This document shows, one piece after another, positions 5,639 through 58,580 of a DNA stretch of 60,695 bases. A program made the position numbers and the translations under genes. This DNA is from Acidobacteriota bacterium (GTDB taxonomy: Bacteria > Acidobacteriota > Terriglobia > Acidiferrales > UBA7541): NCBI GenBank assembly GCA_003223215.1, contig QHYH01000091.1, positions 1-60,695 of the forward strand, given 5' to 3'. How positions within the stretch are numbered: position 1 is the first letter of the stretch; the number at the start of each line of letters is the position of its first letter. The notes beneath the pieces were generated by a model. It was not told the origin of the DNA. It saw only the letters and a list, made by a program, of their open reading frames with translations, and did not search any database.

Positions 5639-6175
5639 TCACTTCAGCTTCACAGCCGGCGTGCCAGACTCCACGTCAAGGCAATGCCGCGCCTTCTCCG
5701 CGGCGTCAGGATCATCCGAATAAAACTCGATGAATTCATCGTGACTGACGAAAGCCATGTGATATGCCGGAGATGTCAGAAGGTAGAAGTCCCATCCGAA
5801 AATAAGAGCAAGTTGGATGAACGTGGCCAGGTCAGCGCCTTCATGCTTGGCGAACAGATGGCCAGGCGCAGCCGCCAGTTGCCGACGGTCCCCATAGCTT
5901 TCACGCATGCGGTAATACAAATGAAGATTCTCGCTGGAACCCCAAACACCCCAGAGCGTTACCCAGAGCAGGCACTCGTCAAATGGTTCGAGATACGAGG
6001 CGAGGAATTCGCTCAGCCAAGTCAGCCTTGACCAGTTGACTCCTGAAAGCGATGTCGTGACCGAATGCGCCCGGTCATTGATGATTGGGTGAACTGCCTC
6101 ATCCAGGCGCAACGCATGTCCTTGGCACCAAGCTTGCGACTCTTCTTTGGTTAGATACCACATGGCCGCCATCAT
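5639..6175 (-). CDS. Hypothetical protein, about 178 residues
   Basis: I do not recognise the family. The protein is soluble and acidic, rich in aromatic residues, with stretches such as YLTKEESQAWCQGHALRL, FLASYLEPFDECLLWVTLWGVWG and FVSHDEFIEFYSDDPDAAEKARHCL, which look like genuine coding rather than shadow. The longest frame starts at 6232; a start at 6175 or 6163 (MWYLTKEES) is more natural. Its size and composition, and its place next to a recombinase on a mobile segment, would fit an immunity-type or accessory protein, but that is speculation. Confidence 0.55.
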   Translation of the reverse strand: MMAAMWYLTKEESQAWCQGHALRLDEAVHPIINDRAHSVTTSLSGVNWSRLTWLSEFLASYLEPFDECLLWVTLWGVWGSSENLHLYYRMRESYGDRRQLAAAPGHLFAKHEGADLATFIQLALIFGWDFYLLTSPAYHMAFVSHDEFIEFYSDDPDAAEKARHCLDVESGTPAVKLK

Positions 6176-6311
6176 AACAGACCAGATTGCCGCAGAAGAA
6201 TTTAGGGGTTTTTGAAAAGGCACAATGCGCACTGGCCGTTGACAGCGACGAAGAATCGGCGCAACTTGACCGGCACACGTGTACCGTCAGTGCACGCCAA
6301 CAGAGGAACAG

Positions 6312-7763
6312 ATGCGACAAGCCGTTTTGTATGCAAGGGTGTCGAGCAAGGATCAGGAGCGCGAAGGTTTCTCGATCCCCGCGCAACTGAAATTTCTCCG
6401 CGAATACGCGCAAACCCACGAGCTGAACGTCCTCCACGAGTTTGTGGATGTCGAGACCGCCAAGACGACTGGCCGAAAGCAATTCGGCGAGATGGTGCGG
6501 TTTCTGCGCGATCACAAAGCATGTCGCATTGTGTTGGTGGAGAAGACCGACCGGCTATATCGGAACTTCCGCGATTGTGTGACCCTCGAAGACCTCGACG
6601 TTGAAATTCACCTGCCCAAAGAAGGGCAGATCATCAGCAAGGACTCGAAATCACAGGCCAAGCTCGTCCACGGCATTCAGCTTGTCATCGCTAGGAACTA
6701 CATCGAGAACTTGCGGGATGAAGTACGCAAGGGAATGCGGGAGAAAGCAGCGCAGGGCATTTACCCCAGCCGGCCGCCGCTCGGCTACCGGAATAACAAA
6801 TTGCTGCGCACTATTGAGGTTGACCATGACAACGCGCCGATCGCACAGAGAATGTTCGAGCTGTATGCAACAGGCACTCATTCGCTGGCGAGTTTGCGCG
6901 GTTTTCTCAAAGCGGAGTATGGCAAGGTCTTCTCGAAGTGGCATCTGGAAAAACTACTCAAGAACCCCTTTTACATCGGAACTTACGAATGGGAAGGTAA
7001 GAGCTACGCAGGCACGCATTCTCCCCTTGTGAGCTCTGAAATATTCGCCCGTGTGCGTGACGTGCTGAGCAGCAAAGCGCGACCTCGCAAACAGAAACAC
7101 GAGTTCGCATTTTCCGGTTTGCTCCACTGCGCTTATGACAATTGCGCGGTCACCGCCGAATTCAAGAAGCAGAAGTACACGTATTACCGCTGCACGGGTT
7201 ATCGCGGCAAGTGCGACCTGCCGTACTTCCGTGAGGAAGTGATGGCCGAACGCCTCGGCCAGGTCTTGCAGGCGATCCGAATCCCGGATGACGTTTTGGC
7301 GCAGCTTGAAGAGTCCGTGCTCTCTGATAAAACCAATGAGGAAACACTCAGGAAGCGCCAGGCCGAGCGAATGCACCAACGGCTGCCCCAACTCCGCAGA
7401 CGCCTTGAGCAGGCTTACGTTGACCACCTCGACGGAAAAATCACGGAGGAATTTTGGGAGGCGAAGTCCGCCGAGTGGCAGGAAGAGGAGCAAGCACTCT
7501 TAGCGTCCTTGCGCGAGCTCGAACAGGCGGAAAATCCCGAGCGTGCGCTCGACCGCGTTCGCATTTTAGAACTCGCGAATAAGGCGCATTCTCTGTACGT
7601 TACGCAGACTCCGCAGGAAAAAGCGAAATTGCTTAGAATGGTGCTATCGAACTGCGCGGTGGACGCGGTAAGTGTTCATCCCACCTACAGAAAGCCCTTC
7701 GACATGATCTTCGAACGGGCGAAAACAGGGGAATGGTGGGCCTGGGTGGACTTGAACCACTAA
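6312..7763 (+). CDS. Large serine recombinase
   Basis: A roughly 484-residue serine site-specific recombinase. The catalytic N-terminal domain opens MRQAVLYARVSSKDQ, with the nucleophile Ser in RVS; it continues with VEKTDRLYRN. A recombinase domain follows (YPSRPPLGYRN through NPFYIGTYEW), then a zinc ribbon (CAYDNC ... YRCTGYRGKC) and a coiled-coil-rich tail (RLPQLRRRLEQAYVDHLDGK). The start at 6312 is preceded by AGAGGA, a plausible ribosome site; an ATG 33 bp upstream is less fitting. The last ten or so codons (EWWAWVDLNH) lie inside a tRNA-Ile 3' fragment, so the gene ends in its own probable attachment site. It is the likely integrase of the 4.8-kb segment. Confidence 0.9.
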   Translation: MRQAVLYARVSSKDQEREGFSIPAQLKFLREYAQTHELNVLHEFVDVETAKTTGRKQFGEMVRFLRDHKACRIVLVEKTDRLYRNFRDCVTLEDLDVEIHLPKEGQIISKDSKSQAKLVHGIQLVIARNYIENLRDEVRKGMREKAAQGIYPSRPPLGYRNNKLLRTIEVDHDNAPIAQRMFELYATGTHSLASLRGFLKAEYGKVFSKWHLEKLLKNPFYIGTYEWEGKSYAGTHSPLVSSEIFARVRDVLSSKARPRKQKHEFAFSGLLHCAYDNCAVTAEFKKQKYTYYRCTGYRGKCDLPYFREEVMAERLGQVLQAIRIPDDVLAQLEESVLSDKTNEETLRKRQAERMHQRLPQLRRRLEQAYVDHLDGKITEEFWEAKSAEWQEEEQALLASLRELEQAENPERALDRVRILELANKAHSLYVTQTPQEKAKLLRMVLSNCAVDAVSVHPTYRKPFDMIFERAKTGEWWAWVDLNH

Positions 7764-23511: not shown

Positions 23512-24753
23512 ATGTCCTATCAGCGAGGATCACTCAAGAAAGTAAAACGCAAGGAATGAGAAACCTGGGTGCTACGGTACCGGGTCACGCTTGCGGACGG
23601 TAGACGGGTCGAGCACAACGCGCCGGTCGGATTACTTGCAGTTCTTCCAAAAGAATCCGACGCCTGGCGCGAGGTGGACCGGCTTGGGCTTTCCGTACGC
23701 ATCAATGACTCACCAGCTCCTGGCCGCGTTTCATTTCACTCTCTTGCGGAGCATTACCTGAAGGCCGATTTCGGCGCGGACGCCGTCCGTCAGAAATCAG
23801 TCAATACCAGCGGCCATGTCGAGCATGTCGTGCGCGCTTATCTTGTCCCACGCTTCGGAGATGAGATCGCGGAAGAGATAAAGCCGCTCGATATTCAGAG
23901 ATGGCTAAAGTTGCTTCACGTGGATAAAGGCCTTGCATGGCCGACGATTGCGAAGATACGGGGCACCATGCACCGCATCTACGAAATTGGCGTCCTACAC
24001 GAACACGTCTCGAAGAATCCCGTGCTACACGTCGAGACGCGCTCGAAGAGCGACTACAAGGCCATCGTCATCACACCCGCGCAAACGCTTGCGATCCTTC
24101 ATTCACTGCCCTCACCTCTTCACTTTACGCTGGTGCTCGCGTGTGCTGCTACAGCGCTCCGCGCTTCGGAGATGCTGTCGCTGCGCTGGGCGGACGTGCT
24201 GTGGGAGGAAGAGCGGATACGGATCTCCAAGCGCTGGGCAAAAGGTGAGGACGGCGAGACAAAAACCGAAGCATCGGATGGCTACGTTCCACTGCATGCC
24301 GTGCTCGCGCATTTCCTGCGTGAGTGGCGGGCACAGACGCCGTATGCCGCCGATGAGGATTTTGTCTTTCCTTCTTTAAGGGCAAAGGGCCGCGTTCCCC
24401 TCTCCGCATCTATCTTCGTTTCTGATCATCTCCGACCGGCAGCAAAGAAAGCCGGGATATGCATAAAGGATGGCAAGCGGTTCGGGCTTCACAACTTGCG
24501 TCACAGCCTAAGCAACTGGCTGGTGAACAAGGCGAAGATCGAACCCAAGACCGTGCAGGGAATCTTGCGTCACAGCAAAATCCAGACGACGCTCGATCTC
24601 TACACACAGGAACACACAGGAAGACAGCGACGAAACACGCGCGGCGCAGGGGGAATATCTGACGGCGCTTGGAGTGAGTACCAATACGGTGCAGTAACGT
24701 GTGGGTTGGATTGTGGGTTGAGGTTTTTGGAGCAACACCCGGTAAGCCATTGA
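23512..24753 (+). pseudogene. Tyrosine integrase with nonsense codon and C-terminal frameshift
   Basis: Phage-type tyrosine recombinase. The natural start at 23512 (MSYQRGSLKKVKRKE) follows GAGGAG, but codon 16 is TGA (23557-23559), after which ETWVLRYRVTLADG continues in frame. The core-binding domain is SFHSLAEHYLKAD. The catalytic domain shows Arg in ALRASEMLSLRW, HNLRHS, and GILRHSKIQTTLDLY with the nucleophile Tyr. Just after that Tyr a perfect 10-bp tandem duplication (ACACACAGGA at 24602-24621) shifts the frame; without it the reading would be QEDSDETRAAQGEYLTALG, ending at TAA 24695-24697. A restart at GTG 23569 could give partial activity. The gene ends 6 bp before tRNA-Ile scar 6, its own attachment site. 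Confidence 0.85.
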
Positions 24754-25794: not shown

Positions 25795-26319
25795 CTAAAA
25801 ATGCCTTCCCGCTCCTTCCGCCAGCTTGCAGTGTCTTGCACTGCCTTGCACGTCCTTCGACCTGACAGGGCGGCATTCTCGACATAGCCAAATCGATGCG
25901 AGCTGTTCTGCCTTCACCCGAAGAGTCTTAACGCCCCTGACTGTATTGCCATCCGGCCAATCGTAAACAAGCGCGGCGGAAGACCCAACTACAAGCAAGT
26001 CTGATGGATAATAGGAAAGCCTGCCCTCTAGTACATGTTCCGTCGTCATGCGCGCAAGCTGAGTCTGCTCGCCGCGGATCAATTGAGCGATGTGCTCTCC
26101 GTGAGCGGACAGAAGTTCGTCCGCCGTCAGAGCCGCTCCTTTCTCCCCCCGGACTTCGTTAAGTTCGACCACCAGGTAGCTTTCCTGGAGCCAATCTTCC
26201 CGGGGCTTGATGACGGCCGGCGCTATTCTTTCAAGATGCCTGCCAACCACCGCGCGCCCTTGGGGTTCGGCATCAGTTGAGTCCATCCAGCGGGACGCCG
26301 CGCCAGGAGCGCACCCCAA
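25795..26319 (-). pseudogene. Fragment of an unassigned protein, cut by an insertion
   Basis: The middle reads IAPAVIKPREDWLQESYLVV, LTADELLSAHGEHIAQLIRGE and LEGRLSYYPSDLLVVGSSAAL, which looks like genuine coding. Upstream it runs into the end of the ISL3 transposase gene, and downstream into an element arm next to tRNA-Asp, so both ends are foreign. The family is not assigned; the YYPSDLLVVG motif would help a search. A shorter homologous end (arm only) lies at 28600-28740. Confidence 0.45.
25825..25850. repeat. Three CTTGCA repeats at 10-bp spacing
   Basis: CTTGCA occurs at 25825, 25835 and 25845. The same arrangement, with the middle unit CTTGCG, occurs at 28599, 28609 and 28619. In both places the repeats lie close to a tRNA or tRNA fragment. 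Helical phasing suggests integrase arm-type sites. Confidence 0.5.
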
Positions 26320-27491
26320 GCACTTTCAAACGTCGCTTCGAGTTGCACCTCAACGATCGCATGTTCGTAGTATTTAATTGAGCAGACGCCGGCGGAGATC
26401 TCGCCTTTGGCACGAAACCAGTTCAAGATCAAATGCTCATGGGCGCGCAGCATACCAGCCACTTTCTGCATCGGTTCCAGACGACTGCGCAGGGCGCGGA
26501 AGCACCAGTAGTCCAGAAAAGCCTGCGCCCAAAAGACCGCTTTGTATTTCCAGAAGTGGGAGAACGTTTCCTTCAACTCCCAAGCGCGGCCCGTGGCCAG
26601 CTTGCTCGTCCACAAAGCCAGAAGCTTTTGCCGCACTCGCCCGCGCACCCGGCTGCCTCGGCGCAACAGCGGCCAGCGCATGTGCTTGAGCTGCTCGGCC
26701 TTGGCCTTCCCCGCCGCTCGCAGGCGCGAACTTTCTGCCCGGCGCACTTCGTCCAACGCCTCATTCAAGTGTTGGGTGATATGAAAGCGGTCCAACACAT
26801 GCAGCGCCTGTTTCGCTTGCTTCGCCAAAACCTGCAAATACGGCTTCCACATGTCACTGCAGACAAACTTCAACCCTTGCACCACCTCCGGCCCTAGCGC
26901 TTGCAGCCCCCGCCGCAGCGTCGCCTGCGAACGCCGTTTCCCCACCCACAGCAGCCGCCGACAATGGGCATCGATCTGATAAATCACCGTTAGAAAATTG
27001 TCTGCCCGCAGCCCGTGACCGTGATGAATCTCATCCACCCCAATCGCTTCCACCCCTTCCAGTTCGCGGTGGGCTAAGCCCCACTCCACAAACCATTCCA
27101 CCGAGCGATACACGGCTTCCCAGCTGGTTTGGAAGACCTGCGCTGTTTCTCGCCAGCTCAGTCTTCGCGCCCAGCGTGCCAAGAATCCCATCATGGCGCA
27201 GGTCACCGGGCGCTTCCCGTGGCTCCAGGGGATGTGCTCGACCACGACCCCGTGCTCGGTGCACTCCACTCGCCGCGGTGGGTAGAGGAAAGAGGTGGGG
27301 ATGCCCCACAAAGGCACGAACCGCCAGCGCCTCTCGGGTAAGCGATCATAGCCGGGTGCCGATCGCTGGCACTGCGAACAGCGCCCTCGGATGCGGTCAT
27401 GAGATCTCACGGTGATCTCGATCAAGAGCGGCCGCGCCTTGTGAGAATGCATCCGCACTTCTTGGTAGACGAAGCCCACGAAATGTTGCAC
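26223..27491 (-). CDS. ISL3-family transposase
   Basis: A 422-residue transposase. The N-terminal zinc finger is CSQCQRSAPGY ... VECTEHG. A helix-turn-helix (LSWRETAQVFQTSWEAVYRSV) and the DDE domain follow, with IGVDEIHHGHG, FVCSDMWKPYL and FRAKGEISAG giving D, D and E. Length is normal and the frame is intact, so it may be active. Terminal inverted repeats were not firmly located; a hairpin lies 30 bp upstream of the start. Confidence 0.9.
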   Translation of the reverse strand: MQHFVGFVYQEVRMHSHKARPLLIEITVRSHDRIRGRCSQCQRSAPGYDRLPERRWRFVPLWGIPTSFLYPPRRVECTEHGVVVEHIPWSHGKRPVTCAMMGFLARWARRLSWRETAQVFQTSWEAVYRSVEWFVEWGLAHRELEGVEAIGVDEIHHGHGLRADNFLTVIYQIDAHCRRLLWVGKRRSQATLRRGLQALGPEVVQGLKFVCSDMWKPYLQVLAKQAKQALHVLDRFHITQHLNEALDEVRRAESSRLRAAGKAKAEQLKHMRWPLLRRGSRVRGRVRQKLLALWTSKLATGRAWELKETFSHFWKYKAVFWAQAFLDYWCFRALRSRLEPMQKVAGMLRAHEHLILNWFRAKGEISAGVCSIKYYEHAIVEVQLEATFESAWGALLARRPAGWTQLMPNPKGARWLAGILKE

Positions 27492-30215: not shown

Positions 30216-30292
30216 TGGTGGGCCTGGGTGGACTTGAACCACCGACCTCGCCCTTATCAGGGGCGCGCTCTAGCCACCTGAGCTACAGGCCC
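30216..30292 (-). tRNA. tRNA-Ile(GAU), the intact integration target
   Basis: 77 nt with encoded CCA. Acceptor GGGCCTG/CAGGCCC, D-arm GCTC...GAGC, anticodon stem CGCCC/GGGCG with loop CTGATAA (anticodon GAT), T-arm GGTGG-TTCAAGT-CCACC; every stem pairs fully. The 3' end faces left, where partial copies of its 3' half mark successive integrations. Confidence 0.98.
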
Positions 30293-30736
30293 CAACATCG
30301 CAGGGGGAACGTTCACAACTATCTCATTGTACGGTGGTTTAGCGTATTTCGCAATTGTGCGGAATCTGCGCTTCGGTACAAGACAGCAACTTTTCCGATC
30401 CACTCACTGTGCACGATCTCCTGAATCAGAGTTCCGTCTATCGCGGAGGGTTCAGCCCACGCAGCGTCAAGATGTACTGGCTCAGCCAGGAAGTGCAGTG
30501 CTTTCGCGTAGATCCGATCAACAAACAGAACCACAATGCGGGTCGCTCGAAGATAAACTCCTAAAAAGGAACGAGCCCTACAGTTAGGGAATTGAGCTTA
30601 GAACGACGCCGAGATCACGGCCACCTGAGCTTATAACTCAAAACAATTCTCGGCGTGGTTCCTCATCGGCTCTAACACCATTGTATCCGATCGACCCCGA
30701 ACGAGAGTACCTGCGGTCCAACTTCCCGATTGCCGA
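30291..30736. repeat. 446-bp tRNA-Ile 5' flank, copy 1
   Basis: Repeats at 35500-35946 in the same orientation with scattered substitutions. It contains the tRNA-Ile promoter. Open frames within it differ between copies by several amino-acid changes, so coding is doubtful. Confidence 0.9.
30326..30354 (-). promoter_or_regulatory. tRNA-Ile promoter
   Basis: On the minus strand TTGCGA (30354-30349), 17 bp, TACAAT (30331-30326), about 34 bp before the tRNA 5' end. The same elements are conserved in the duplicated copy at 35535-35563. Confidence 0.65.
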
Positions 30737-30863
30737 CAACTCGCCAACTGGCCCCAGTCGTTCTGGACTTTTGAGCGCAATTGCGATGTTTTACTGATTG
30801 GCGAACCTGGAAAATTCCTTGTTGCCTCAGTTAGTTTCCGCAGCACACAATGGCTTTTTACCG

Positions 30864-35076: not shown

Positions 35077-35350
35077 GGGAAATAGGCTAGCATGAGAAGT
35101 GCTTTGGATACTGCATTGAAGAAACCCCACAGCACCTGATGGGCAAGGTCTTTAGATAAGAGTTTGATCAAAATGCGTCCTCCTAGTCGGCTTCGCGGAT
35201 GCGCTTGCGGCCACTCCCGAATTAACGGCCCAACCGGAAGTTATTCCGCTCCAGAATTCCCCTACGAAAAGCCGGTGGGATGATTCCCTTTGTGATCGAA
35301 ATGAGAGGTCAAGCTCAAGTTTCCAGCAAACAAACAGCGCAGACTCAGAA

Positions 35351-35501
35351 GCGGCTTGACGAGCTTTCTAAGCGCCGACCTGAAGTGCATCCCGCGGTCA
35401 ACGATTTGTGTACAAGTTGTGTACAAGAAGGCGGGTTTGAAGGGCCTGAAAATGGACCTAAGCAACGCAGAATCAACAACAGACTCTTAAGCTACAGGCC
35501 C
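35351..35501. repeat. Element arm with tRNA-Ile 5' remnant, copy 1
   Basis: About 151 bp matching 58055-58207 (GCGGCTTGACGAGC through CAACAACAGACTCTTAAG), ending in AGCTACAGGCCC, the first bases of tRNA-Ile in reverse. It contains two tandem TTGTGTACAAG units at 35406-35427. Confidence 0.85.
35442..35501 (-). ncRNA. Candidate tRNA-like RNA from a truncated tRNA-Ile
   Basis: On the minus strand the first 13 nt of tRNA-Ile (GGGCCTGTAGCTT) continue into the arm, which contains CAGGCCC, restoring a full 7-bp acceptor-like stem over 60 nt. An anticodon-like hairpin AGAGTC-TGTTGTT-GATTCT sits between, with one G-T pair. No T-arm or CCA exists. A duplicate of the tRNA-Ile promoter lies upstream (35535-35563), so transcription is plausible. 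Function is unknown. Confidence 0.35.
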
Positions 35502-35946
35502 CAACCTCGCGGGGGAACCGCTCACAAGTATCTGATTGTACGGTAGTTCAGCGCATTTCGCAATTGTGCGGAATCTGCGCTTCGGTACAAAACAGCAACT
35601 TCTCCGGTCCACTTACTGTGCACGATCTCCTGAATCAGAGTTCCGTCTATCGCGGAGGGTCCAGCCCACGCAGCGTCAAGATGTACTGGCTCAGCCAGGA
35701 AGTGCAGTGTTTTCGCGTAGATCCGATCAACAAACAGAACCACAATGCGGGTCGCTCGAAGATAAACACCTAAAAAGCAACGAGCCCTACAGTTAGGGAA
35801 TTGAGCTTAGAACGACGCCGAGATCACGGCCACCTGAGCCTATAACTCAAAACAATTCTCGGCGTGGTTCCTCATCGGCTCTAACACCATTGAATCCGAT
35901 CGACCCCGAACGAGAGTACCTGCGGTCCAACTTCCCGATTGCCGAC
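35500..35946. repeat. 446-bp tRNA-Ile 5' flank, copy 2
   Basis: Second copy of 30291-30736, offset 5209-5210 bp. The promoter elements TTGCGA (35563-35558) and TACAAT (35540-35535) are kept with the same 17-bp spacer. The tRNA itself is truncated. Confidence 0.9.
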
Positions 35947-36233
35947 CAACCGCCCGGAATCAGCGTGAGCCTACAGGTCGAAAACAAACAATTCATTGGA
36001 AATGGGCACCTCATCGGCTCATCGCTTAGGAGAACCGCATACTTCTTTGCCTTGATATGCAATCGGACGGGTCACGCATTTTCTAAGAGTGCCACAGGAA
36101 AGACCGATGTATCATTCAACGTCTAGCCCGCGTAACGTCACGTTTACCTTGCGAGGAATTATCGGAACCGAGGAGCGGACCTTCCGAGGTTGGGTCACCC
36201 ACAAGTACACGAAATCCCATGACAGATTGGCAA

Positions 36234-49975: not shown

Positions 49976-51199
49976 GAATTAGCCAGTGCTTCTGCGTTGG
50001 AATTGAATTGATTTCTTGTTCGCGAGACCCATAGGCGCCACCTTGTCATTGATCATCAGAATCCGTATTTTTCTGAACGCTCGCCGGAGTTGGAGGGAGA
50101 TAAGATCATCATCCAGGCCCCAGGACGCGCCGAACGATCACTTCTCCGGGCTCGCGTGACGGATCATGGTTGCCACCCGATCACGCCGCCGGTGCGAAGT
50201 TGCGCTGTTTGCGGCTACTGAGGGCGATTCGTTGCGCGATTTCCCCGGCAAACAGGTCGATGGGAAACGACAGATTCCCGGCGAATGTTCAAAAAACTAT
50301 GTTTTCGTGTGATCGCCAACACACCCTCGAGGCTCGTTTTTTTTTCTCGTTGCCGCCTTTTGTCGCCGCGCGAAAGCGCTAAGTCATTCTCAGCAAATGG
50401 GATGGTTGGTAGGGGCGGTGGGGATCGAACCCGCGACCCTCGGCTCGTCCGGTTCCATCCGAGTGAAAGAAAATTCGGTCCAATTGATTGGGCTTCAGGT
50501 CGCTCTATGCAATGCTAGTTTCGGAAAGTACTGCGATTCGCCTCCCCTTCGCAGGAGACTGTACAATAACTGTGACACAAAACCTGTCTTGGCTGCCCAA
50601 ATTGACTTCTTTGACGAGTTGCGCTTGTTGATTCTTATTGTAATACGAATCTCCCCGAAGATTTCGGCTTACAGGCTCGCTGATCGGTTTTAGTCCGTGT
50701 ATCCGCCGTGTACCTCGCTTCGACGTTTTTATAGTTTTTCTCCATTTTGCTTTTTCGTAGAATCAGTAAGTTACGTAGTATCAATCCCTTGAGGGGTTCG
50801 ACTCCAATCCTGTGTAGATGCTTTTGTCGGATCTCGACGATCCGACACGTACACGAAGGAATATGCAGGGTCACAGACCTCGGACGAGGCTGTATTTCAA
50901 CTGATTTTTAACGAGAGTTGCTGCAAGCTTGCAAGTGGATGCGTTGCCCCTCGTTGATTGCTTCTCCTCCGAATTGTGACAACTGGCCCTCTATTAGCTT
51001 CGGAGGGGCGATATAACCACATAACGTTTCTGCGTTTACTTTGCAAGTAGAGAGTCAAAGTCATAGCCTCAAATCCGTCACTCACCTTCTACGTGCTGGT
51101 TCCCGTCATGATTTCCGTACTGTGATTCGCGTTGTCGCGGAATCGACCACTGAACGATTTCGCGAAATTTCAAGCCCCAGAATCTGATATTCTCCAACC
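49976..51199. other. About 1.2 kb without a recognisable gene
   Basis: No convincing coding region. It contains the tRNA 3' fragment at 50407-50443 and, near 50696, GTGTATCCGCCGTGTACCTCG, similar to the repeat GTGTACCTGCGGTGTACCTC near 58001. Confidence 0.5.
50407..50443 (-). repeat. tRNA 3' fragment B
   Basis: On the minus strand: T-arm region GTCGCGGGTTCGATCCCC, then CGCCCCT-A-CCA, the end of a tRNA with encoded CCA. The anticodon half is missing. It shares TGGTAGGGGCGGT with the fragment at 47454, so the two may bracket another small island. Confidence 0.6.
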
Positions 51200-51601
51200 A
51201 TGGAAGCGCGTTCTTTGGGTGATGTGGGTGGTACGCCGGGAGGCTTGGGTCATTTCGTGATCGGTTTCGTCATGGCTTGCATGGGAGGATACTTCCTGGC
51301 GAATCAAGTCAGCGTAGTTGGTTCGTATTGGAGTTTCTACGGGGCAAATACGTTCGGCATCACGCTGGTGCCGATGTTGCTCGGTGTGGGAATTCTATTT
51401 TGGAACGGTCGGAGCCTTGTAGGTTGGATCCTTACGGCAGCTGGGGCTCTTTTCATTCTGGCCGGCGTGATTGCCAACATGCATATTTATTTTCGGCCCG
51501 CCAGCCTTTTTAATACTCTTGTGATGTTGATCCTGCTCGTTGGGGGACTTGGGCTGATCGCGCGCGCTTTACGGCCTCATCCTGCAACTAAGAGTGAATA
51601 A
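51200..51601 (+). CDS. Small membrane protein, unassigned
   Basis: A 133-residue protein with four predicted membrane helices (HFVIGFVMACMGGYFLAN; ITLVPMLLGVGILFW; GWILTAAGALFILAGVIANM; FNTLVMLILLVGGLGLIARAL). The N-terminal part is glycine-rich. I do not recognise the family with certainty. It is convergent with the ABC operon to its right, with an 80-bp gap, so it could be functionally linked. Confidence 0.7.
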   Translation: MEARSLGDVGGTPGGLGHFVIGFVMACMGGYFLANQVSVVGSYWSFYGANTFGITLVPMLLGVGILFWNGRSLVGWILTAAGALFILAGVIANMHIYFRPASLFNTLVMLILLVGGLGLIARALRPHPATKSE

Positions 51602-51680
51602 TTGCCGTTCGCTGTTTCGTGTTCGAATTTCTGCCATAGGGGGCGAACAGGAGTGCGCATCCCATTCAAGGGTACACTTG

Positions 51681-52505
51681 TTATAGCGTCTGGAATCTCT
51701 CTTTCACTTCCCGCACAAATTCGAGGAACCTAGGCGAGTTGGTGAGTTCCGGATGCCAGCACAGGTCACGGTCAATGAGATCGTAGGTCTCCTGAATGCG
51801 CGCGCCAGGGATGAAGTTTCCGCCAGGGTCGCGATCCCGTCCCATAAGCCACAGGTGATCTGCCACGGTTGCGGCCGCGGTCACGTCGTGGGTAACAACA
51901 ATAATGGTGTTGAGCTCGTCCAGGCAGGCAATCTCGTTGATTAATTCGCAGACCTTCGCCTCCATCACGACGTCGAGGCCGGAGAAAGGCTCATCCATCA
52001 GCAGAAAATGTTCGCTGCACAGAAGCTGTTGCGCGATGGCGATTCTCTGTCGCTGGCCGCCGGAGATTTGCGCGGGATAAAGCTGCGCCTGATCCACCAT
52101 ATCCAGACGCCGCAGGTACTTAAGCACCTTCTCATGCGCGGATTCATGACTGTTTTCCATTTGTTTTGCCGCCAGCAACAAGTTGCTGAAAATCGTGCGA
52201 TTTTCAAACAAAGGATAATTCTGTGCCACCACGCCCACCATTCCGGCCTTGACCGGGGTAAGTGTGGAATTGACGAGCACCTGTCCCGAAGTGGGGTGAT
52301 TCAGCCCTGCGACGATGCGAAAGAGCTGCGTCTTTCCGATGCCTGATGGCCCGAGAAAACCAACTACCTGGCCTTGGGTGCGGCCCTCTCGCACGATATC
52401 GCGAATTTCCGCATTTACGTCCCGGAGAATGACCTTGTCTTCGTACGAAAGGCTGACGTGGTCAATCTTCAGAAGTGTTTCGCCGTAGGTGCAACGCTCG
52501 GGCAC
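51681..52505 (-). CDS. ABC transporter ATP-binding protein
   Basis: A 274-residue ATPase of the nitrate/taurine importer type. Walker A GFLGPSGIGKTQL, Q-loop GVVAQNYPLF, signature ISGGQRQRIAIAQQL, Walker B HFLLMDEPFSGLD and H-loop VVTHDVTAAA are all intact. It is the last gene of a five-gene operon, 28 bp after the permease gene. It energises the permease; the substrate is unknown. Confidence 0.93.
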   Translation of the reverse strand: MPERCTYGETLLKIDHVSLSYEDKVILRDVNAEIRDIVREGRTQGQVVGFLGPSGIGKTQLFRIVAGLNHPTSGQVLVNSTLTPVKAGMVGVVAQNYPLFENRTIFSNLLLAAKQMENSHESAHEKVLKYLRRLDMVDQAQLYPAQISGGQRQRIAIAQQLLCSEHFLLMDEPFSGLDVVMEAKVCELINEIACLDELNTIIVVTHDVTAAATVADHLWLMGRDRDPGGNFIPGARIQETYDLIDRDLCWHPELTNSPRFLEFVREVKERFQTL

Positions 52506-52532
52506 GGGAGGTCCTCACGAATCCATGAGTTG

Positions 52533-53411
52533 CTATCTTTTTTCAAGCTGCAAATCCGCGTAGGGGAACAGGAATTTCTTGGCCAATCCCAGCGCGTAAT
52601 CCTGGAACAATCCAATAAGCAGAATGGCGATTTGAATCGCAAATACGGCTTCTAACCGGAAGTGCTTGTTCTGATTCAGCAACAATGCACCGATACCGCC
52701 CTCCGACCGAGATATGCCTTCGACCATCGTGAGCATCATCCAGCCCATGGCCGCGTTCTGGCGCATGGCATCGAAAGCAGAGTCCGCTTTGCCCAGGACG
52801 ATCACTTCCCAAACGACGCGCCACTCTCCCATGCGCAGCGTGCGCGCTAGATCAAATTTCTCCTTCGGGATTTGCGCTACTACGTCGATCATGCTTGTCA
52901 CGAAGAAGACCGCCACTCCGAAGACCAATAGACTTACCTTCAGTCGGTGTCCACTGGAAAAAATGATGGTAAAGAAAAATGTAAGCCCCACCATGCCGAG
53001 GAAACGGCCCTTGGAGACAGCCAGTGCGATAGGCTGGAACACGGGAACGACTGTGAGATAAGCAAGGCCCAGCGAAATGAGCGTCGCCCAGGCCATGGCC
53101 TGCACATTGAGCAAGAAGCTGACGATGAGTTCCTGCCCGAGTCCCTCATGGGTCCAGAGATCAACGAAGGCCCGCCACACATCCATCGGTTTCGGCAGAA
53201 AAACGTAGGTCGAAGTAGCCCAAACAATCAGCAGCACGGCGACTTGAAAGACGATGATGAACCGGAACGCCGCCTTCGAAATCACGCGGTTGGGCGAAAA
53301 CGCGCCGAGAATTTCACGCGAAAAGGTACTTCGGCCAGCAGCTGTCGCGTGGCTTGCGGCTGGTGCTGCGCTTGTTCCCACCGTTCCGGCCGCTGGCTTC
53401 ATGGGATTCAC
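52533..53411 (-). CDS. ABC importer permease (SsuC/NrtB-like)
   Basis: A 292-residue permease with an Ala-rich cytoplasmic N-terminus and about six helices, for example FIIVFQVAVLLIVWATSTYV, WATLISLGLAYLTVVPVF and VSLLVFGVAVFFVTSMIDVVA. The EAA-type cytoplasmic loop (EVIVLGKADSAFDAMRQNAAMGW) and the following EGGIGALL fit the binding-protein-dependent importers for sulfonate, nitrate or taurine. It is preceded by the OmpA-fused binding protein gene (10-bp gap) and followed by the ATPase gene. Confidence 0.9.
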   Translation of the reverse strand: MNPMKPAAGTVGTSAAPAASHATAAGRSTFSREILGAFSPNRVISKAAFRFIIVFQVAVLLIVWATSTYVFLPKPMDVWRAFVDLWTHEGLGQELIVSFLLNVQAMAWATLISLGLAYLTVVPVFQPIALAVSKGRFLGMVGLTFFFTIIFSSGHRLKVSLLVFGVAVFFVTSMIDVVAQIPKEKFDLARTLRMGEWRVVWEVIVLGKADSAFDAMRQNAAMGWMMLTMVEGISRSEGGIGALLLNQNKHFRLEAVFAIQIAILLIGLFQDYALGLAKKFLFPYADLQLEKR

Positions 53412-53420
53412 TCCTGCTTT

Positions 53421-55268
53421 CTATTCCTTGCCCGACAGAATGATTTCTACGCGGCGGTTCTTGGCCCGGCCCTCGGCGGTCGCGTTGGATGCGACGGGCT
53501 TGGAGTCGCCGTATGCTTGGATTCTGAAACGATTGTCCGGGAAGTTTGCAGGAGCCTTCCGCTGCAGCCAGTCCCGTACCGCCTGAGCGCGCCGCATCGC
53601 CAAATCCATGTTACCGTCGTGCGTGCCCATGTTGTCGGTGTGTCCATTCAAAGTGACAAACAGTGCGCCGGCAATGGCCAAGTCGTCCTTGATCTCATAC
53701 ATCTTGCGTTCGCCTTCTGGGGTGAATGAAGCTTGGCCGGTTGCGAATTCAATGCTCCAGTCGCGTTTCGAAACGACCGTACCCGTATCTCCGCTAGGAC
53801 TAAAGCTGGCAACGTCTGCTTCCGCGCCGCTTTGCGAAAGCATCGAAGAGGCGCCCAAAACGTATGAGGTATCGAGAATCTCCTTTACGTCAGGAATCTT
53901 GTTGGCATCCTTGAACAATTCGGGGTATTGCTGAGTCGCGATATTTCCGAACACGGTGTAAGTGGAACGAAAATTGTTGTTTGCACCGGGCTGCAACCCG
54001 AACAGCAGCAAATTGTCATTCAAATTGTTCACGGCGGAGCCGCCAAGCTCTACCAGGTTGCCAGTCTTATCTTGTTCGCGCGTTCCCTGGTAATATTTCA
54101 GCCAATAGTCACCGGTTTGCTCGTTGTAGACTTTGGCGCTGATCGCCGCGGCGCGCTTGAGCGCTTCCGGGAAGGCTTTAAGCTGGTCGGCCGCTTCGAA
54201 GCTGGCCGCCAGCATTCCTTGCACTTCATTCCGATGGTCCTGGTTGAATTTCTTGATCCCAATAATGACGTCTGGCATCTGCGAGCGATATTGCTTCGAA
54301 GACACGATGGAGACGAGCCCGCCGCGTCCGTGGGCCACGTTGACGTCCCCTGGTGTCCAGGTGACGACGCCGTTCACACAGACGTTCTTGGATTCTCCAG
54401 TCAGCCGGCCGTCATGCACGATTTTGCGGTCTTCGCAAGTATTTGCGTTATAGATTTCCGCGGCCTTGATGTAGTCAGGCGCGTTGACCCAATTCAAAGC
54501 ATCGGGGTCGTAAGTTTTTTCGTCAGGATTATTCTTGATTTGGTTGTCTGCTGCCCACTTCATGGCGATATTCCAGTCGCCGTCGCGAAGGACCCCAGCT
54601 ACTAGGCCACCCTTGGCTGCCTGTGGGTCAGCTTTCCATTGCGGCGGCCCCATCAGCTTGTCCTCTCCGCGGGAATACCCTGTTGAGCCAATGACTTGCG
54701 CGATGTATTCGCCGGCGCCATTGTCAAGCTTCTTGAGCTGTGGATTGACCGCGGCGAAAAACTGCCCTGAGCCGTCGCCCATGATGAGGACGTAATTCGC
54801 GCCCGCGGAACACTGGCTTGAGCCGTCGTGGAGCTCTTTCGCACAGGCAATCAAGTCATTCTGCATTTGGCTGGTGTCGTCCTGGCGGATCAGCTTCAGG
54901 TTGACGTTATGTTTTTCCATCAGGCTGTTGCGCGTGGTCTCCGGACCGCCATTAGCGTAGATATAGTTCATCTGTGCGTTCCAGGCCCATATTTCGGTGC
55001 GAATCAGCGGCGCTTTCACGGAAGCCGAAGCCCCTTCCGGGAAGGACGCAGGCTCGACGTTGGCGACGACGGCTTCTTTCAAGTCCGGCAAAGAGGCTTT
55101 CGATGGAATGAGGGCCTTGGCGATGCCCGGCGCGGGAATCCAACCGCGGCTAACGGCCGTGCGGAATCCGAAGAACAGAACTGCCCCAATGAATAGGAGC
55201 AGAACAATCTTCGCTCCCGGTTTCAGGCGGTGTCCGGTTGGTGGTGTCGAGATTTTATTGTCAAACAT
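53421..55268 (-). CDS. Membrane-anchored substrate-binding protein fused to an OmpA domain
   Basis: A 615-residue fusion. Residues 20-40 form a membrane anchor (IVLLLFIGAVLFFGFRTAV). Residues 80-480 look like a periplasmic binding-protein module (IRTEIWAWNAQMNYIYANGG; GANYVLIMGDGSGQFFAA; TYDPDALNWVNAPDYIKAAEIY). Residues from about 500 to the end are an OmpA-like peptidoglycan-binding domain (WSIEFATGQASFTPEGERKMYEI, NGHTDN, MDLAMRRAQAVRDWLQRK, AKNRRVEIILSG). The binding protein would thus be held at the inner membrane and to the wall. Its genes for permease and ATPase follow directly. The ligand is unknown. Confidence 0.88.
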   Translation of the reverse strand: MFDNKISTPPTGHRLKPGAKIVLLLFIGAVLFFGFRTAVSRGWIPAPGIAKALIPSKASLPDLKEAVVANVEPASFPEGASASVKAPLIRTEIWAWNAQMNYIYANGGPETTRNSLMEKHNVNLKLIRQDDTSQMQNDLIACAKELHDGSSQCSAGANYVLIMGDGSGQFFAAVNPQLKKLDNGAGEYIAQVIGSTGYSRGEDKLMGPPQWKADPQAAKGGLVAGVLRDGDWNIAMKWAADNQIKNNPDEKTYDPDALNWVNAPDYIKAAEIYNANTCEDRKIVHDGRLTGESKNVCVNGVVTWTPGDVNVAHGRGGLVSIVSSKQYRSQMPDVIIGIKKFNQDHRNEVQGMLAASFEAADQLKAFPEALKRAAAISAKVYNEQTGDYWLKYYQGTREQDKTGNLVELGGSAVNNLNDNLLLFGLQPGANNNFRSTYTVFGNIATQQYPELFKDANKIPDVKEILDTSYVLGASSMLSQSGAEADVASFSPSGDTGTVVSKRDWSIEFATGQASFTPEGERKMYEIKDDLAIAGALFVTLNGHTDNMGTHDGNMDLAMRRAQAVRDWLQRKAPANFPDNRFRIQAYGDSKPVASNATAEGRAKNRRVEIILSGKE

Positions 55269-55292
55269 ATTGATCTTCCCTCCACTCGTTCA

Positions 55293-56312
55293 TTACTTGA
55301 TCAAATCGCTGTAATCGTCCTTCTTGTTGGCCGGCGCAGCCGAAGTTTGGTCCGGCACGGCTGCCACCGAAGCCGGCAGGAGTTTCTGCTGAAATTCCGT
55401 CAATTGCTTGACGGCCTCGTCGTTGATCGCCCCAGTTTCTAGGTCCATGTTGGTCATCAACTTGTTAGCAAGACGATTGAAATCTTCCATCTCACCCAGC
55501 ATTTGCCCAGCATCATCTGCTAGGTATTCCAGCGTTTGGTCGTAAATCTGGTTTGCGACCGGATCGCCGCGGAAAATCTTTTTGGCCGCCTGGAACACGG
55601 AGTAAGCCTTTTTCAGCGCCTTCCTCCGCATCTCTTCTTCGCTAACGCGGTTTTCCTTGTCGGTGACCTGGAACTCTGCCGTGGCCCTCCAGCGGATTAG
55701 CTGGTCATATAAAATCTTCAGTTTGTCCCGCAAATCGGTGAGCGACTTGTTGATGTTGATCAGGCTCGCGGCGTGACGCTGATTTGTGACCTTGGCGGAC
55801 ATGTACTGCTGTTGATCCAGAGAGGTCAGACCGCCAGCGGACATCTTCTTGTCGGCCTGATTGGCCAGGGCCATGCTGTGCTCGGCCTCTTTTTGGTTCG
55901 TGTCGATCTGGTTCTGGAGTGTGCGGATGGAACCGTTCAGGTTGCCGAGCTGTTCATCCATGATTGCGAGATTCTTTTTCATCTCCGCGATGTAGTTCTT
56001 CAGGATGCCGATAGGATCGAGTTCGATGAACAGGCCGGTCAAATACCGCATGACGCTCTGAAAGATGAGCTTCCCGAGCGTCAAAACACGCTTATCTGTG
56101 ACGATGAAAATCAGCAACAGAATCGCCCCGATTAGAATCGCAAGATGCAGCGTATCCGTCGCGGCCGCGATCAAGAACGGAAGGACCTGCACAAATCCAT
56201 ACGCTGCTGCGATTCCGCCGAGGACCAGCACAACTTTCCCGACGGTCCCTTCCGGCCGCTGCCAGAAATTCTTCAAACCCTGAATTACGGGGGAACCTGG
56301 TGTGGTTGCCAT
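55293..56312 (-). CDS. Membrane coiled-coil protein (PspA-like architecture)
   Basis: A 339-residue protein. The N-terminal third has two membrane helices (VGKVVLVLGGIAAAYGFVQVLPFLI; LHLAILIGAILLLIFIV). A long helical region follows (DPIGILKNYIAEMKKNLAIMDEQLGNLNGSIRTLQNQI; QYMSAKVTNQRHAASLININKSLTDLRDKLKILYDQL) and a charged tail. The opening PIGILKNYIAEMKKNLA recalls PspA/ESCRT-III-type proteins, but that is a structural inference. It lies 24 bp before the OmpA-fusion gene, second in the operon. Confidence 0.75.
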   Translation of the reverse strand: MATTPGSPVIQGLKNFWQRPEGTVGKVVLVLGGIAAAYGFVQVLPFLIAAATDTLHLAILIGAILLLIFIVTDKRVLTLGKLIFQSVMRYLTGLFIELDPIGILKNYIAEMKKNLAIMDEQLGNLNGSIRTLQNQIDTNQKEAEHSMALANQADKKMSAGGLTSLDQQQYMSAKVTNQRHAASLININKSLTDLRDKLKILYDQLIRWRATAEFQVTDKENRVSEEEMRRKALKKAYSVFQAAKKIFRGDPVANQIYDQTLEYLADDAGQMLGEMEDFNRLANKLMTNMDLETGAINDEAVKQLTEFQQKLLPASVAAVPDQTSAAPANKKDDYSDLIK

Positions 56313-56321
56313 GGCGTCTCC

Positions 56322-56948
56322 CTAACCCAAAATCGTTTCAAATTCCTTACGTTGTTGCTGAATCTCCGCGCGCCGCCGGTCCAGCGCAGCCGCAAAATTG
56401 TTCTTGGCTTCTTGCAATTTTGCGCGCGAGACCTCGGTCTGCGATTGGATGGACTTCGCCTGCTGTTGCAGATCGGCGATTTCCTTCTGTTTCTGCTGGA
56501 CCGCCTCGTTGATATCGCTGACTTGCGCAATTTTCGCGTCAACTTCAGTTCGTGAAACATCCTCCGTTTGTTTATTGAAAGTGTTCGCCGAGGTATTCAG
56601 AACATTCAACAAAGCGTCAAAGCCGTTCAAGATCGCATCTTTCGTCAAGCCGCCCTGCGACTGCGCCGTGGCAAGGGCCGCCTTGTACCTCAACGCCTTG
56701 TCACTAATGACCGAAGAGAGTGGCGCCGCAAAAGCTTCGATCTTGGCGAGTTCCGGAACGGCGGAGAAGTCGGTCTGCTTGGCTAGCCGCGCGTAAAATT
56801 GGTTGTCGCGCGTGCCCACGGGGACGTATACGGGAGCCGGATCGCGGGGCCGCGTCGCCGCGGGGCCAGGCGATGGCTTGGCAGACTGCTGCGCCGCCTG
56901 CGGCTCCTCTTCAAAAATCGCCTTCTTGATAAGGTCCATGAAGGGCAT
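56322..56948 (-). CDS. Soluble coiled-coil protein, first gene of ABC/OmpA operon
   Basis: A 208-residue protein. N-terminus MPFMDLIKKAIFEEEPQ, then a Pro/Ala-rich linker (KPSPGPAATRPRDPAPVYVPVG), a globular helical segment (FYARLAKQTDFSAVPELAKIEAFAAPLSSVISDKALRYKAAL) and a long coiled coil to the end (VSDINEAVQQKQKEIADLQQQAKSIQSQTEVSRAKLQEAKNNF). The family is not recognised. GCAAGGAAG upstream provides a ribosome site, and the gene is 10 bp before the membrane coiled-coil gene. Confidence 0.78.
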   Translation of the reverse strand: MPFMDLIKKAIFEEEPQAAQQSAKPSPGPAATRPRDPAPVYVPVGTRDNQFYARLAKQTDFSAVPELAKIEAFAAPLSSVISDKALRYKAALATAQSQGGLTKDAILNGFDALLNVLNTSANTFNKQTEDVSRTEVDAKIAQVSDINEAVQQKQKEIADLQQQAKSIQSQTEVSRAKLQEAKNNFAAALDRRRAEIQQQRKEFETILG

Positions 56949-57315
56949 ATGTCACTTCCTTGCTACTCCAGCTCTGCTCCGGAGGCAGGGAACACACAGC
57001 TTCGCTCTTCCGAGGCCCGGCCGGACTGGAGGTTTCGTGCCAAATCGGTCCACGAATCCGCACGCATTGTATCCTATAGATTAAGAGAACCCTTGCGTTG
57101 TACCTGGGATACGCGGCCATCGTAGACTGGGCCTGCTCGCCTTTCAACAAGGAATTTGCCAATGTAGCGCATTCAATAAACCGGCAATTTCACTTGCCTC
57201 GATGACCTATTAAACCGCCTACGGGAAAAGCATGCAATTCAGCTACAATGCACACTTTCACTGTTCAAAATGATGCCGTTCCTGAACTGACAAACTTTCG
57301 AACAAGGACTAACCT
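56949..57315. other. Divergent intergenic region
   Basis: 367 bp between the operon and the HTH gene. No gene seen. Promoters for both directions are expected here but no consensus pair was firmly placed. Confidence 0.4.
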
Positions 57316-57780
57316 GTGGCTGCAAAGACGCTACCCGTAGTATTGAGCCAGATTGTCGAAGCCAAAGCCGAATACGATACGCGGCTCCTGGCCCAGCAGC
57401 TCGGAACGAACTACCGCTCTCTGATGTATTGGCTTAGAGGTGATCGACCCATCCCTGGGGAGCTGCTGCCGCGGATTTGCGTCCTGCTGAGGAATTTCGA
57501 ACCTCTGGATGTTCTCGAATCACAGGCGGGAAGAGTGGCATTCAAGATTCCAGATCCGCAACAGACCTCGGAGAAAGAGTTCCTGGTTATTTCCAACCTC
57601 ATGAAAGATGTGGGTTCGGCACTGGAGAGCATTGCAACCACTTTAGCGGACGGGGTTGTTGAAGAAAATGAATTGAACGCGACGATCCCGAAGCTGGAAG
57701 CCGTAATCCAGGAATGCGCGTCGGTCAAATACCTGCTTGAGACTCTCTACAAAAACAGAAAACTGAAGATGAAAAAGTAG
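57316..57780 (+). CDS. HTH protein resembling phage CII/CP76-type regulators
   Basis: A 154-residue protein starting at GTG or GCT-adjacent 57316. The N-terminal half has a helix-turn-helix-like unit (DTRLLAQQLGTNYRSLMYWLRGDRPIPGELLPRICVLLRNF), similar to CP76-type phage regulators. The C-terminal half is helical (SNLMKDVGSALESIATTLADG; LNATIPKLEAVIQECASVKYLLETL) and may dimerise. It is transcribed divergently from the ABC/OmpA operon and could be its regulator. Confidence 0.7.
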   Translation: MAAKTLPVVLSQIVEAKAEYDTRLLAQQLGTNYRSLMYWLRGDRPIPGELLPRICVLLRNFEPLDVLESQAGRVAFKIPDPQQTSEKEFLVISNLMKDVGSALESIATTLADGVVEENELNATIPKLEAVIQECASVKYLLETLYKNRKLKMKK

Positions 57781-57938
57781 GGTTTGGATTTGAGGGCCAA
57801 TTCGACATTGTGATGCTTGATGCGTGCGAGCACTAGCGCGATCACGCACGACGCGGCCACGCCGAGCCAGAGATAAAACACGAAGTGCAACAACCGATGG
57901 GAAGGCACGACGCGCTGAGGCCGCTTCATTTCGGGCAC
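57747..57938 (-). CDS. Possible small single-helix membrane protein
   Basis: A 63-residue frame with a good hydrophobic helix (RLLHFVFYLWLGVAASCVIALVLARI) and a basic N-terminus. Its last codons overlap the end of the convergent HTH gene, and no ribosome site stands out. It may be genuine or chance. Confidence 0.3.
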   Translation of the reverse strand: MPEMKRPQRVVPSHRLLHFVFYLWLGVAASCVIALVLARIKHHNVELALKSKPYFFIFSFLFL

Positions 57939-58054
57939 GAATTGAACGTAACGGAAGTGCGAGCCCTTCTGCAGGGGTTTGGATTTAATTCACAACGCCC
58001 GTGTACCTGCGGTGTACCTCAATCGGTGAAATCTGCCCATTCTGGCGTTTCTGC

Positions 58055-58207
58055 AGCGGCTTGACGAGCTTTCTAAGCGCCGACCTGACAGTGCATCCCG
58101 CGGTCACGATTTTGTGTACAAGTTGTGTACAAGAAGGCGGGTTTGAAGGGCCTGAAAATGGACCTAAGCAACGCAGAATCAACAACAGACTCTTAAGCTA
58201 CAGGCCC
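58055..58207. repeat. Element arm with tRNA 5' remnant, copy 2
   Basis: About 153 bp matching 35351-35501, including the two TTGTGTACAAG units (58112-58133) and the terminal AGCTACAGGCCC. The flank beyond differs from copy 1 (GTCAGAAAAACC), so the target locus was different or has been rearranged. The 60-nt tRNA-like hairpin spans 58148-58207 on the minus strand. Confidence 0.8.
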
Positions 58208-58274
58208 GTCAGAAAAACCTTCTGCTATCTTAGCATGCCCCCTGCGATTTCTTCTAACCTCCGGCTTACTGCAC

Positions 58275-58580
58275 TTACTGCACAAATCCCACATTCGGCG
58301 TTGGCCCGCCCTCCGGCGCCTCTTTGATCGGTCCGAACTGCGCTTCATAACGGTTCAGATTCTCCCCCAGCGCTCGCCAGATGCGTTTGGCGTGTCCCGG
58401 ACTGACGATCGCGCTGCTCAGAAGCTTCCCTTGCGTGCCGTTCGGAAAAATATAGATAAAATTCAGTGTGAATTCTTCCAGGTTGTGGTGAATCATCACC
58501 AGGTTGCTGTATTGCCCCTGCAATTCCTTCTCATCTGCCTTGATTTGCACTTGTCCCTGCGCCGGCTGTTGTTGATCCAT
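58275..58580 (-). CDS. DUF3467 protein
   Basis: A 101-residue protein with the DUF3467 pattern: DEKELQGQYSNLVMIHHNLEEFTLNFIYIFP, then LLSSAIVSPGHAKRIWRALGENLNRYEAQFGPI. The family is widespread, small, mainly beta, and of unknown role. A standard ATG start with no near upstream partner; it is divergent from mntH. Confidence 0.9.
   Translation of the reverse strand: MDQQQPAQGQVQIKADEKELQGQYSNLVMIHHNLEEFTLNFIYIFPNGTQGKLLSSAIVSPGHAKRIWRALGENLNRYEAQFGPIKEAPEGGPTPNVGFVQ

Follow-up and report, generated by a model that had tools for sequence, protein, structure and literature searches.

A huge-phage type of ABC transporter operon, with a substrate-binding/OmpA fusion, in an Acidobacteriota genome

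The locus described here raises two questions: what is the function of a transporter whose substrate-binding protein appears to be held both to the inner membrane and to the cell wall, and from where did its bacterial host obtain it? The DNA analysed (the window) is one entire contig of 60,695 nucleotides (QHYH01000091.1) in the 8.8-Mb assembly GCA_003223215.1 of a soil Acidobacteriota bacterium. It carries an operon of five tightly packed open reading frames (ORFs), all on the minus strand: CC1, a soluble coiled coil of 208 amino acids (aa) (56322–56948); CC2, a membrane coiled coil of 339 aa (55293–56312); a 615-aa fusion of an inner-membrane helix, a substrate-binding domain and an OmpA peptidoglycan-binding domain (53421–55268); an ATP-binding cassette (ABC) permease of 292 aa (52533–53411); and an ABC ATPase of 274 aa (51681–52505). 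By ORF coordinates the intergenic gaps are 9, 24, 9 and 27 bp; an initial annotation of this DNA had rightly described five close minus-strand genes, with a first gap of 10 bp. What it overlooked matters most: the gene set is one of huge phages and sits on a segment that looks mobile. We somewhat favour the view that the operon, of a phage type, encodes an ABC import complex tethered to the wall and accompanied by a coil that supports the membrane, and that it was taken over from huge phages and has spread on islands.

Gene order in viral contigs and named huge phages

The order CC1-CC2-fusion-permease-ATPase is repeated in four other genomes of the window's genus, which are also the nearest records (Acidobacteria 'gp2' metagenome genomes, fusion 93–97% identical). 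Among viral contigs, a scan with a single sequence returned eight and an alignment scan 78 IMG/VR loci, those eight included; the order is complete in 63 of the 78. Nine of the 15 exceptions are cut by contig ends (L010, L086, L096, L112, L120, L122, L124, L125, L129) and two are fragments only (L135, L136), while L013 lacks both coils in the stretch covered, CC1 is undetectable in L079 and L085, and L078 shows the bacterial arrangement. Because the order recurs in the four genus genomes and in 63 viral loci, chance grouping is excluded. The co-occurrence of coil and ABC genes that the initial annotation had proposed to check was thus found, and a CC1 homologue also accompanies 16 of the 22 other bacterial loci. 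No other neighbour family detectable by BLAST occurs in more than 10 of the 78 viral loci. Contigs above 200 kb account for 24 of the 78, L078 among these.

The family phrog_9, which we read as terminase because of an overlapping PF03237 match in the 462-kb phage LR756500 (the output carries no description for it), matches five of the eight viral records and 14 of 25 in a second set. PF03237 itself matched in one of nine viral records, tail sheath PF04984 in one, below cut-off, and TerL_nuclease PF20441 in none. Ten proteins were scanned from G299 (the record of L009; L041–L060), a 463-kb viral contig, and these include phage helicases and a phage-type NAMPT, with no capsid or terminase among the ten. 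The same contig has 68 predicted tRNA genes and a transfer-messenger RNA in the 400 kb read, three of the tRNA genes with a CTA anticodon.

Named phages, some of them among the largest known, carry the same set. All five genes stand in this order in LR756500, in the 735-kb phage LR756501 and in both Lak phage regions inspected (n = 2). With the 735-kb phage protein as query, 20 records were covered over at least 80%: two of 735 kb, 15 Lak (540–552 kb), two of Bacillus phage G (498 kb) and one 38-kb fecal contig. All phage-collection matches covering at least 80% of the fusion come from genomes of at least 462 kb and that one 38-kb contig, a count that has no denominator of large genomes without a match and so may not imply presence in each giant phage. 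A search of plasmid records yielded 485 matches; in none did coverage of the query reach 80%. The cultured phage G has the permease (gp243), ATPase (gp245), a CC1/F6-family protein (gp246, E 8.8e-17) and two fusions (gp249, gp250), in a gene order that differs from the one above; gp247 is a candidate membrane coil, matching CC2 only at E 0.012. In the phage G record gp243 is annotated as an ABC-like permease and gp249 and gp250 as OmpA/MotB. The 38-kb fecal contig (MT835556.1, 33–37 kb) has a fusion 44% identical to gp249 plus a permease match, and may be a fragment from a relative of phage G.

Origin of the bacterial copy and the segment that carries it

The five gp2 rows of a 96-fusion tree cluster as one clade within the viral rows, grouping with them in sets of 19 rows (Shimodaira–Hasegawa-like approximate likelihood ratio test, SH-aLRT, 95) and 21 rows (99). 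A smaller tree places the clade with viral rows in a 9-row set (bootstrap 100, SH-aLRT 99). The larger tree omits L105, L120, L124, L125, L129, L130, L135 and L136 as fragments or near-copies and L127 for its length, and the smaller one omits L028 and the own-genome L001–L005. Forcing gp2 together with 15 other bacterial rows cost 129.5 log units and was rejected by the approximately unbiased (AU) test (p-AU 1.6e-7). That test covered 58 of the tree's 96 rows; of the 21 other bacterial rows it left out six, five of them distant and one a near-copy. The window's gene is nested inside the phage radiation. Transfer from phage to bacterium would be the simplest direction for gp2, and the bacterium most likely obtained the set from huge phages.

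The transporter also occurs in Armatimonadota, Myxococcota and other Acidobacteriota, the fusion being present in seven of 297 Acidobacteriota genomes at E ≤ 1e-30, the window's own counted. Among 22 bacterial loci outside gp2, some of them cut by contig ends, 17 have a membrane coil family, F5, and 16 the CC1 homologue F6; CC2 is absent from all of them. Within 151 relatives CC2 is confined to five genomes, all of one genus out of 52.

The operon lies on a 22.7-kb segment (35502–58207) whose two ends are marked by 12-bp copies of the 5′ end of tRNA-Ile (35490–35501 and 58196–58207) and by terminal repeats (35350–35501 and 58055–58207, 98% identical). The tRNA-Ile gene (30216–30292, minus strand) lies to the left; exact 12-bp copies of its 5′ end start at 30281, 35490 and 58196, and a further repeat pairs 30281–30745 with 35490–35954 (95%). 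Because of these end copies and flanking repeats we read the DNA as two apparent tandem segments, with the operon on the second. In the window, the DNA that aligns with the four other genomes (blastn, E 1e-10) starts at 51121–51685 and ends at 57204–57817, and pairwise comparisons among those four end at the same points. The five genus genomes thus have the operon in common and different flanking DNA in each one compared (the flanks compared span roughly 1.5–6 kb). A 133-aa gene at 51200 also falls within the shared stretch in L021 and L024. Divergent from the operon is the helix-turn-helix gene that had been noticed at 57316, a CII/CP76-like regulator (57316–57780, plus strand; Phage_CP76 PF06892, 32.4 bits, cut-off 26), which accompanies the operon in four of the five genus genomes, being missing in L024, and has no match across the 78 viral loci.

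The window's right flank, an Nramp region, is matched in 35 of 36 genus genomes, some matches being short. In the four other CC2-bearing genomes this match lies on a different contig than CC2, and the piece in G328 is just 0.37 kb. In six of eight regions (L142–L147) the distance from the Nramp flank to a tRNA-Ile-like sequence is about 0.1 to 2.9 kb; in L148 about 3.6 kb of other DNA separates the two, and in L149 no such sequence was matched near the flank.

An intact prophage in the window is unsupported, nothing phage-like having been found near the operon apart from the regulator (a PHROG scan of the five operon proteins and the regulator; other genes by ORF lists and ten Pfam scans). Rfam gave no match within 51000–58300 at E 0.1. 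Farther left, on the tRNA's side, 46-bp copies of the tRNA-Ile 3′ end (91–100% identical) occur at 1097, 2102, 7732, 8099, 24758 and 28830, together with a tyrosine integrase (23569–24753) and a serine recombinase (6279–7763). These are probably stacked integrations, and an ISL3-family transposase (26223–27491) lies in the same region.

Predicted proteins of the operon

The combination of substrate-binding module, membrane anchor and OmpA domain in one protein, as first annotated, is borne out by the hydrophobic segment, model fold and Pfam alike. The fusion has a single hydrophobic segment (21–39), and its model (predicted local distance difference test, pLDDT, 85.5) shows a helix at 17–40, a binding-protein fold of TauA/SsuA/NrtA type at about 85–480 and an OmpA domain at 499–613, the last matching PF00691 at 67.2 bits (cut-off 27.2). 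The binding-domain model superimposes on TauA with Z 27.8 (2.8 Å, 290 residues), other close solved folds being CmpA (Z 25.0) and NrtA (Z 24.4); the closest to the OmpA part is TagL (Z 18.8). Pfam NMT1 (PF09084 or PF13379) has no match in the window's fusion, and its cut-off is passed by phage G gp249 and gp250 and by the Lak and 735-kb homologues.

Across 96 phage and bacterial fusions, a count that leaves out the phage G, Lak and 735-kb phage proteins, W96, D203, D231, W304, D308 and M331 are identical in all, E202 in 95 and W232 in 81. D545 and R560 of the OmpA domain, a pair that binds diaminopimelate in OmpA, are likewise invariant (96/96). The double tether to inner membrane and wall proposed at the outset is therefore supported, as a prediction, by the model, the hydrophobic helix and the invariant OmpA residues. 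Ligands are often held at strand-to-helix positions in such binding proteins, and in the model's secondary structure W96, D231, W304 and D308 sit between a strand and the helix that follows it, or where that helix begins. The conserved Trp and Asp residues lead us to guess at a cationic or ring-shaped ligand.

The ATPase is as annotated, with a clear match to ABC_tran PF00005 (88.7 bits, cut-off 25) and intact motifs; among the 83 ATPases left by length filtering (90 permeases were likewise retained), Walker A is conserved in 80, the signature in 82, Walker B in 81 and the H-loop in 75. The SsuC-like permease fared less evenly. An SsuC/TauC-type permease is indeed found in the phage relatives, and phage G gp243 is a clear member of BPD_transp_1 (83.4 bits), but the window's protein is a divergent one whose matches to BPD_transp_1 and SaoP (39.6 bits for the latter) both fall below cut-off.

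CC1 starts with a short amphipathic-looking motif, 'DLIKKAIFEEEP', followed by a Pro-rich linker, a helical domain and a coil; many of the phage members inspected by eye have a similar N-terminal motif and linker. It is homologous to the bacterial coil family F6 (hhalign 97.2%, E 3.6e-11; 95.7% and 97.2% in two profile comparisons). CC2 has hydrophobic segments at 27–45 and 54–72 and then a long modelled helical hairpin (100–248; pLDDT 61.5). In favour of its proposed PspA-like build, Vipp1 and PspA are the top-ranked folds (Vipp1 Z 12.8 over 142 residues, on a poor model); against it, PF04012 is sub-threshold and the best Foldseek E on this weak model is 6.2e-3, with none ≤ 0.001. Only four of 69 CC2 members match PF04012 at E ≤ 0.01, the best at 1.8e-6, and a sequence search of the PDB with CC2 returned unrelated coils and other helical proteins, PomB included. 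The comparison with PspA/ESCRT-III that had been suggested thus puts Vipp1 and PspA first with weak scores, and since helical pairs generally score high and the CC2 model is weak, this fold-based likeness is suggestive only. An equation of CC2 with the bacterial membrane coil F5 was not supported, the two showing no homology by profile (probabilities 1.9% and 2.0%).

Import, sensing or exclusion

In the import complex that we propose, the N-terminal helix would fix the binding domain at the inner membrane and the OmpA domain would fix it to peptidoglycan; the binding domain would capture a conserved solute and deliver it to the permease, the ATPase powering the process. CC2 would sit in the membrane with a Vipp1/PspA-like hairpin, CC1 would be its soluble partner, and the two would probably help to position or brace the membrane that surrounds the complex. 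Transport itself, contact between coils and transporter, capture from a huge phage and a benefit to phage and host are what we infer from this arrangement.

Several observations weigh against this proposal. The permease scores 18.2 bits against BPD_transp_1 (cut-off 26.4), CC2 22.9 bits against PspA_IM30 PF04012 (cut-off 33.9), and the CC2 model is of poor quality. On the viral side, phrog_9 is missing from three of the eight and 11 of the 25 viral records, whose virus identity is that given by IMG/VR; it is short and weak in G299, and it matches four of 14 control bacterial genomes. Four pairs among the 78 loci carry identical fusions. L078 (IMGVR 3300044957_000763), a 479-kb contig counted in the 78 loci and in the tree's viral group, is probably bacterial DNA filed as viral, since its gene order is the bacterial one and phrog_9 does not match it. 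Midpoint rooting means that the tree does not fix which way the deep transfers ran, and the group used in the AU test was named after a tree had been seen. As to mobility, no integrase was recognised among the ORFs scanned (not all of them) inside 35502–58207, no phage gene was recognised near the operon beyond the operon itself and the CII-like regulator, and the gp2 genomes are all draft metagenome assemblies, whose contig breaks limit comparison of the flanks.

The main rival, which we regard as possible though rather doubtful, is an envelope sensor or stress machine, in which the tethered domain reads a ligand or the state of the wall, the ABC pair signals and the coils act on the membrane with no net transport. 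The predicted double tether and the Vipp1/PspA-like hairpin of CC2 would suit it, as would a published bacterial association interpreted as membrane remodelling linked to transport (PMC11237479), and a pspA-like gene transcribed as an operon beside terD in gut huge phages (PMC12363816, a preprint). The initial annotation had raised this reading, suggesting that the set could be an envelope-spanning sensor or stress-response machine and not a nutrient importer. We do not favour it because the binding-domain residues and ATPase motifs are strongly conserved; moreover, phage G has an ordinary BPD_transp_1 permease, and Pfam found no signalling domain in the five proteins.

It is unlikely that the complex serves superinfection exclusion or lysis control, reinforcing the infected-cell envelope against other phages or early lysis and acting as a captured defence in the bacterium. 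Its distribution in huge phages and its patchy occurrence in hosts, in differing contexts, fit that idea, huge-phage surface proteins have been proposed to affect other phages (PMC7162821), and the OmpA domain resembles ZorB of the Zorya defence system (E 8.6e-10). However, the PADLOC matches are shared domains only (the ZorB OmpA domain, the mad3 ABC ATPase at E 6.6e-22, coils), with no match to permease, CC2 or regulator and no partner proteins of one defence system; a conserved binding domain would be unnecessary for reinforcing an envelope, and it is conserved in the bacterial operons as well. Equally improbable, and disfavoured, is an ordinary chromosomal nutrient importer of Acidobacteria that phages captured several times. 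The presence of the transporter in other Acidobacteriota, Armatimonadota and Myxococcota and a tree rooted at its midpoint speak for it, whereas the window's proteins nest among phages, apart from those bacteria, CC2 is absent from all 22 other bacterial loci and confined to one genus, and the flanks differ in every genus genome compared.

That the coils and the fusion belong together is not new, since a bacterial cousin has been reported: PspA or transmembrane-bearing Snf7 homologues and an AAA+ ATPase form operons with an ABC ATPase, permease and PBPB-OmpA protein (PMC11237479, section 18; example OGG56892.1). Those operons resemble the window's in the ABC pair and in a solute-binding/OmpA fusion adjoining a membrane coil; they differ in the AAA+ ATPase, which Pfam did not find among the five proteins of the window's operon, in the regulator or in the adjoining 133-aa protein (other parts of the window were scanned incompletely), in the coil, CC2 having no profile homology to the bacterial F5 coil, and in that the window's set occurs in huge phages and on a mobile-looking segment. 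The TauABC, SsuABC, NrtABCD and CmpABCD importers share the binding fold and, with the phage relatives, the SsuC/TauC-type permease, but not the fusion to a membrane helix and wall-binding domain, the two coils or the invariant Trp and Asp residues. TagL/TssL, MotB and ZorB likewise join a membrane helix to a peptidoglycan-binding domain, without the binding-protein domain that the fusion places between them. Phage G gp243–gp250 is alike in permease, ATPase, CC1/F6 homologue, fusion and candidate membrane coil, and unlike in its own gene order and its two fusions.

For phages, we found no report of the five-gene set in the literature covered, which includes term searches of PMC7824862, PMC13282480, PMC12619734, PMC13037316, PMC8346664 and PMC6784885, with supplements and most subscription journals outside it. 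By term search, 'transporter' and 'OmpA' are absent from the main text of the huge-phage survey (PMC7162821), a jumbo-phage overview and a 2026 review, and 'OmpA' from two Lak phage papers. Soil viruses have been described with ABC transporter genes, 11 under positive selection and five with drug-efflux domains (PMC10746233); a term search of that text did not find the binding/OmpA fusion.

One concrete candidate function that may help to answer why giant phages retain genomes of half a megabase is a transport and envelope module, present in Lak phages, in the 462-kb and 735-kb phages and in phage G, which is in culture. The finding is more interesting than first assumed because very large phages share the set and one of them is cultured; the module is directly testable because phage G grows in the laboratory. 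The reverse flow is also visible in the window, as a bacterial lineage with the phage form. The broader proposition, that a self-contained wall-anchored import and membrane-support machine is standard in the way that very large phages of Gram-positive and Gram-negative hosts manage the infected cell, and that it has been captured by soil Acidobacteria, which transmit it as a cassette on islands, seems to us evenly balanced.

Two other genes were seen beside viral copies of the operon. In seven of the 78 viral loci (L105:14156–15265 and six others) a further gene resembling a binding protein, TAXI-type by eye and with a hydrophobic stretch at its N terminus, lies near the operon. In L013, which has no CC1 or CC2 nearby, an AAA/peptidase M41 (FtsH-like) gene (5737–7695) lies upstream of the fusion.

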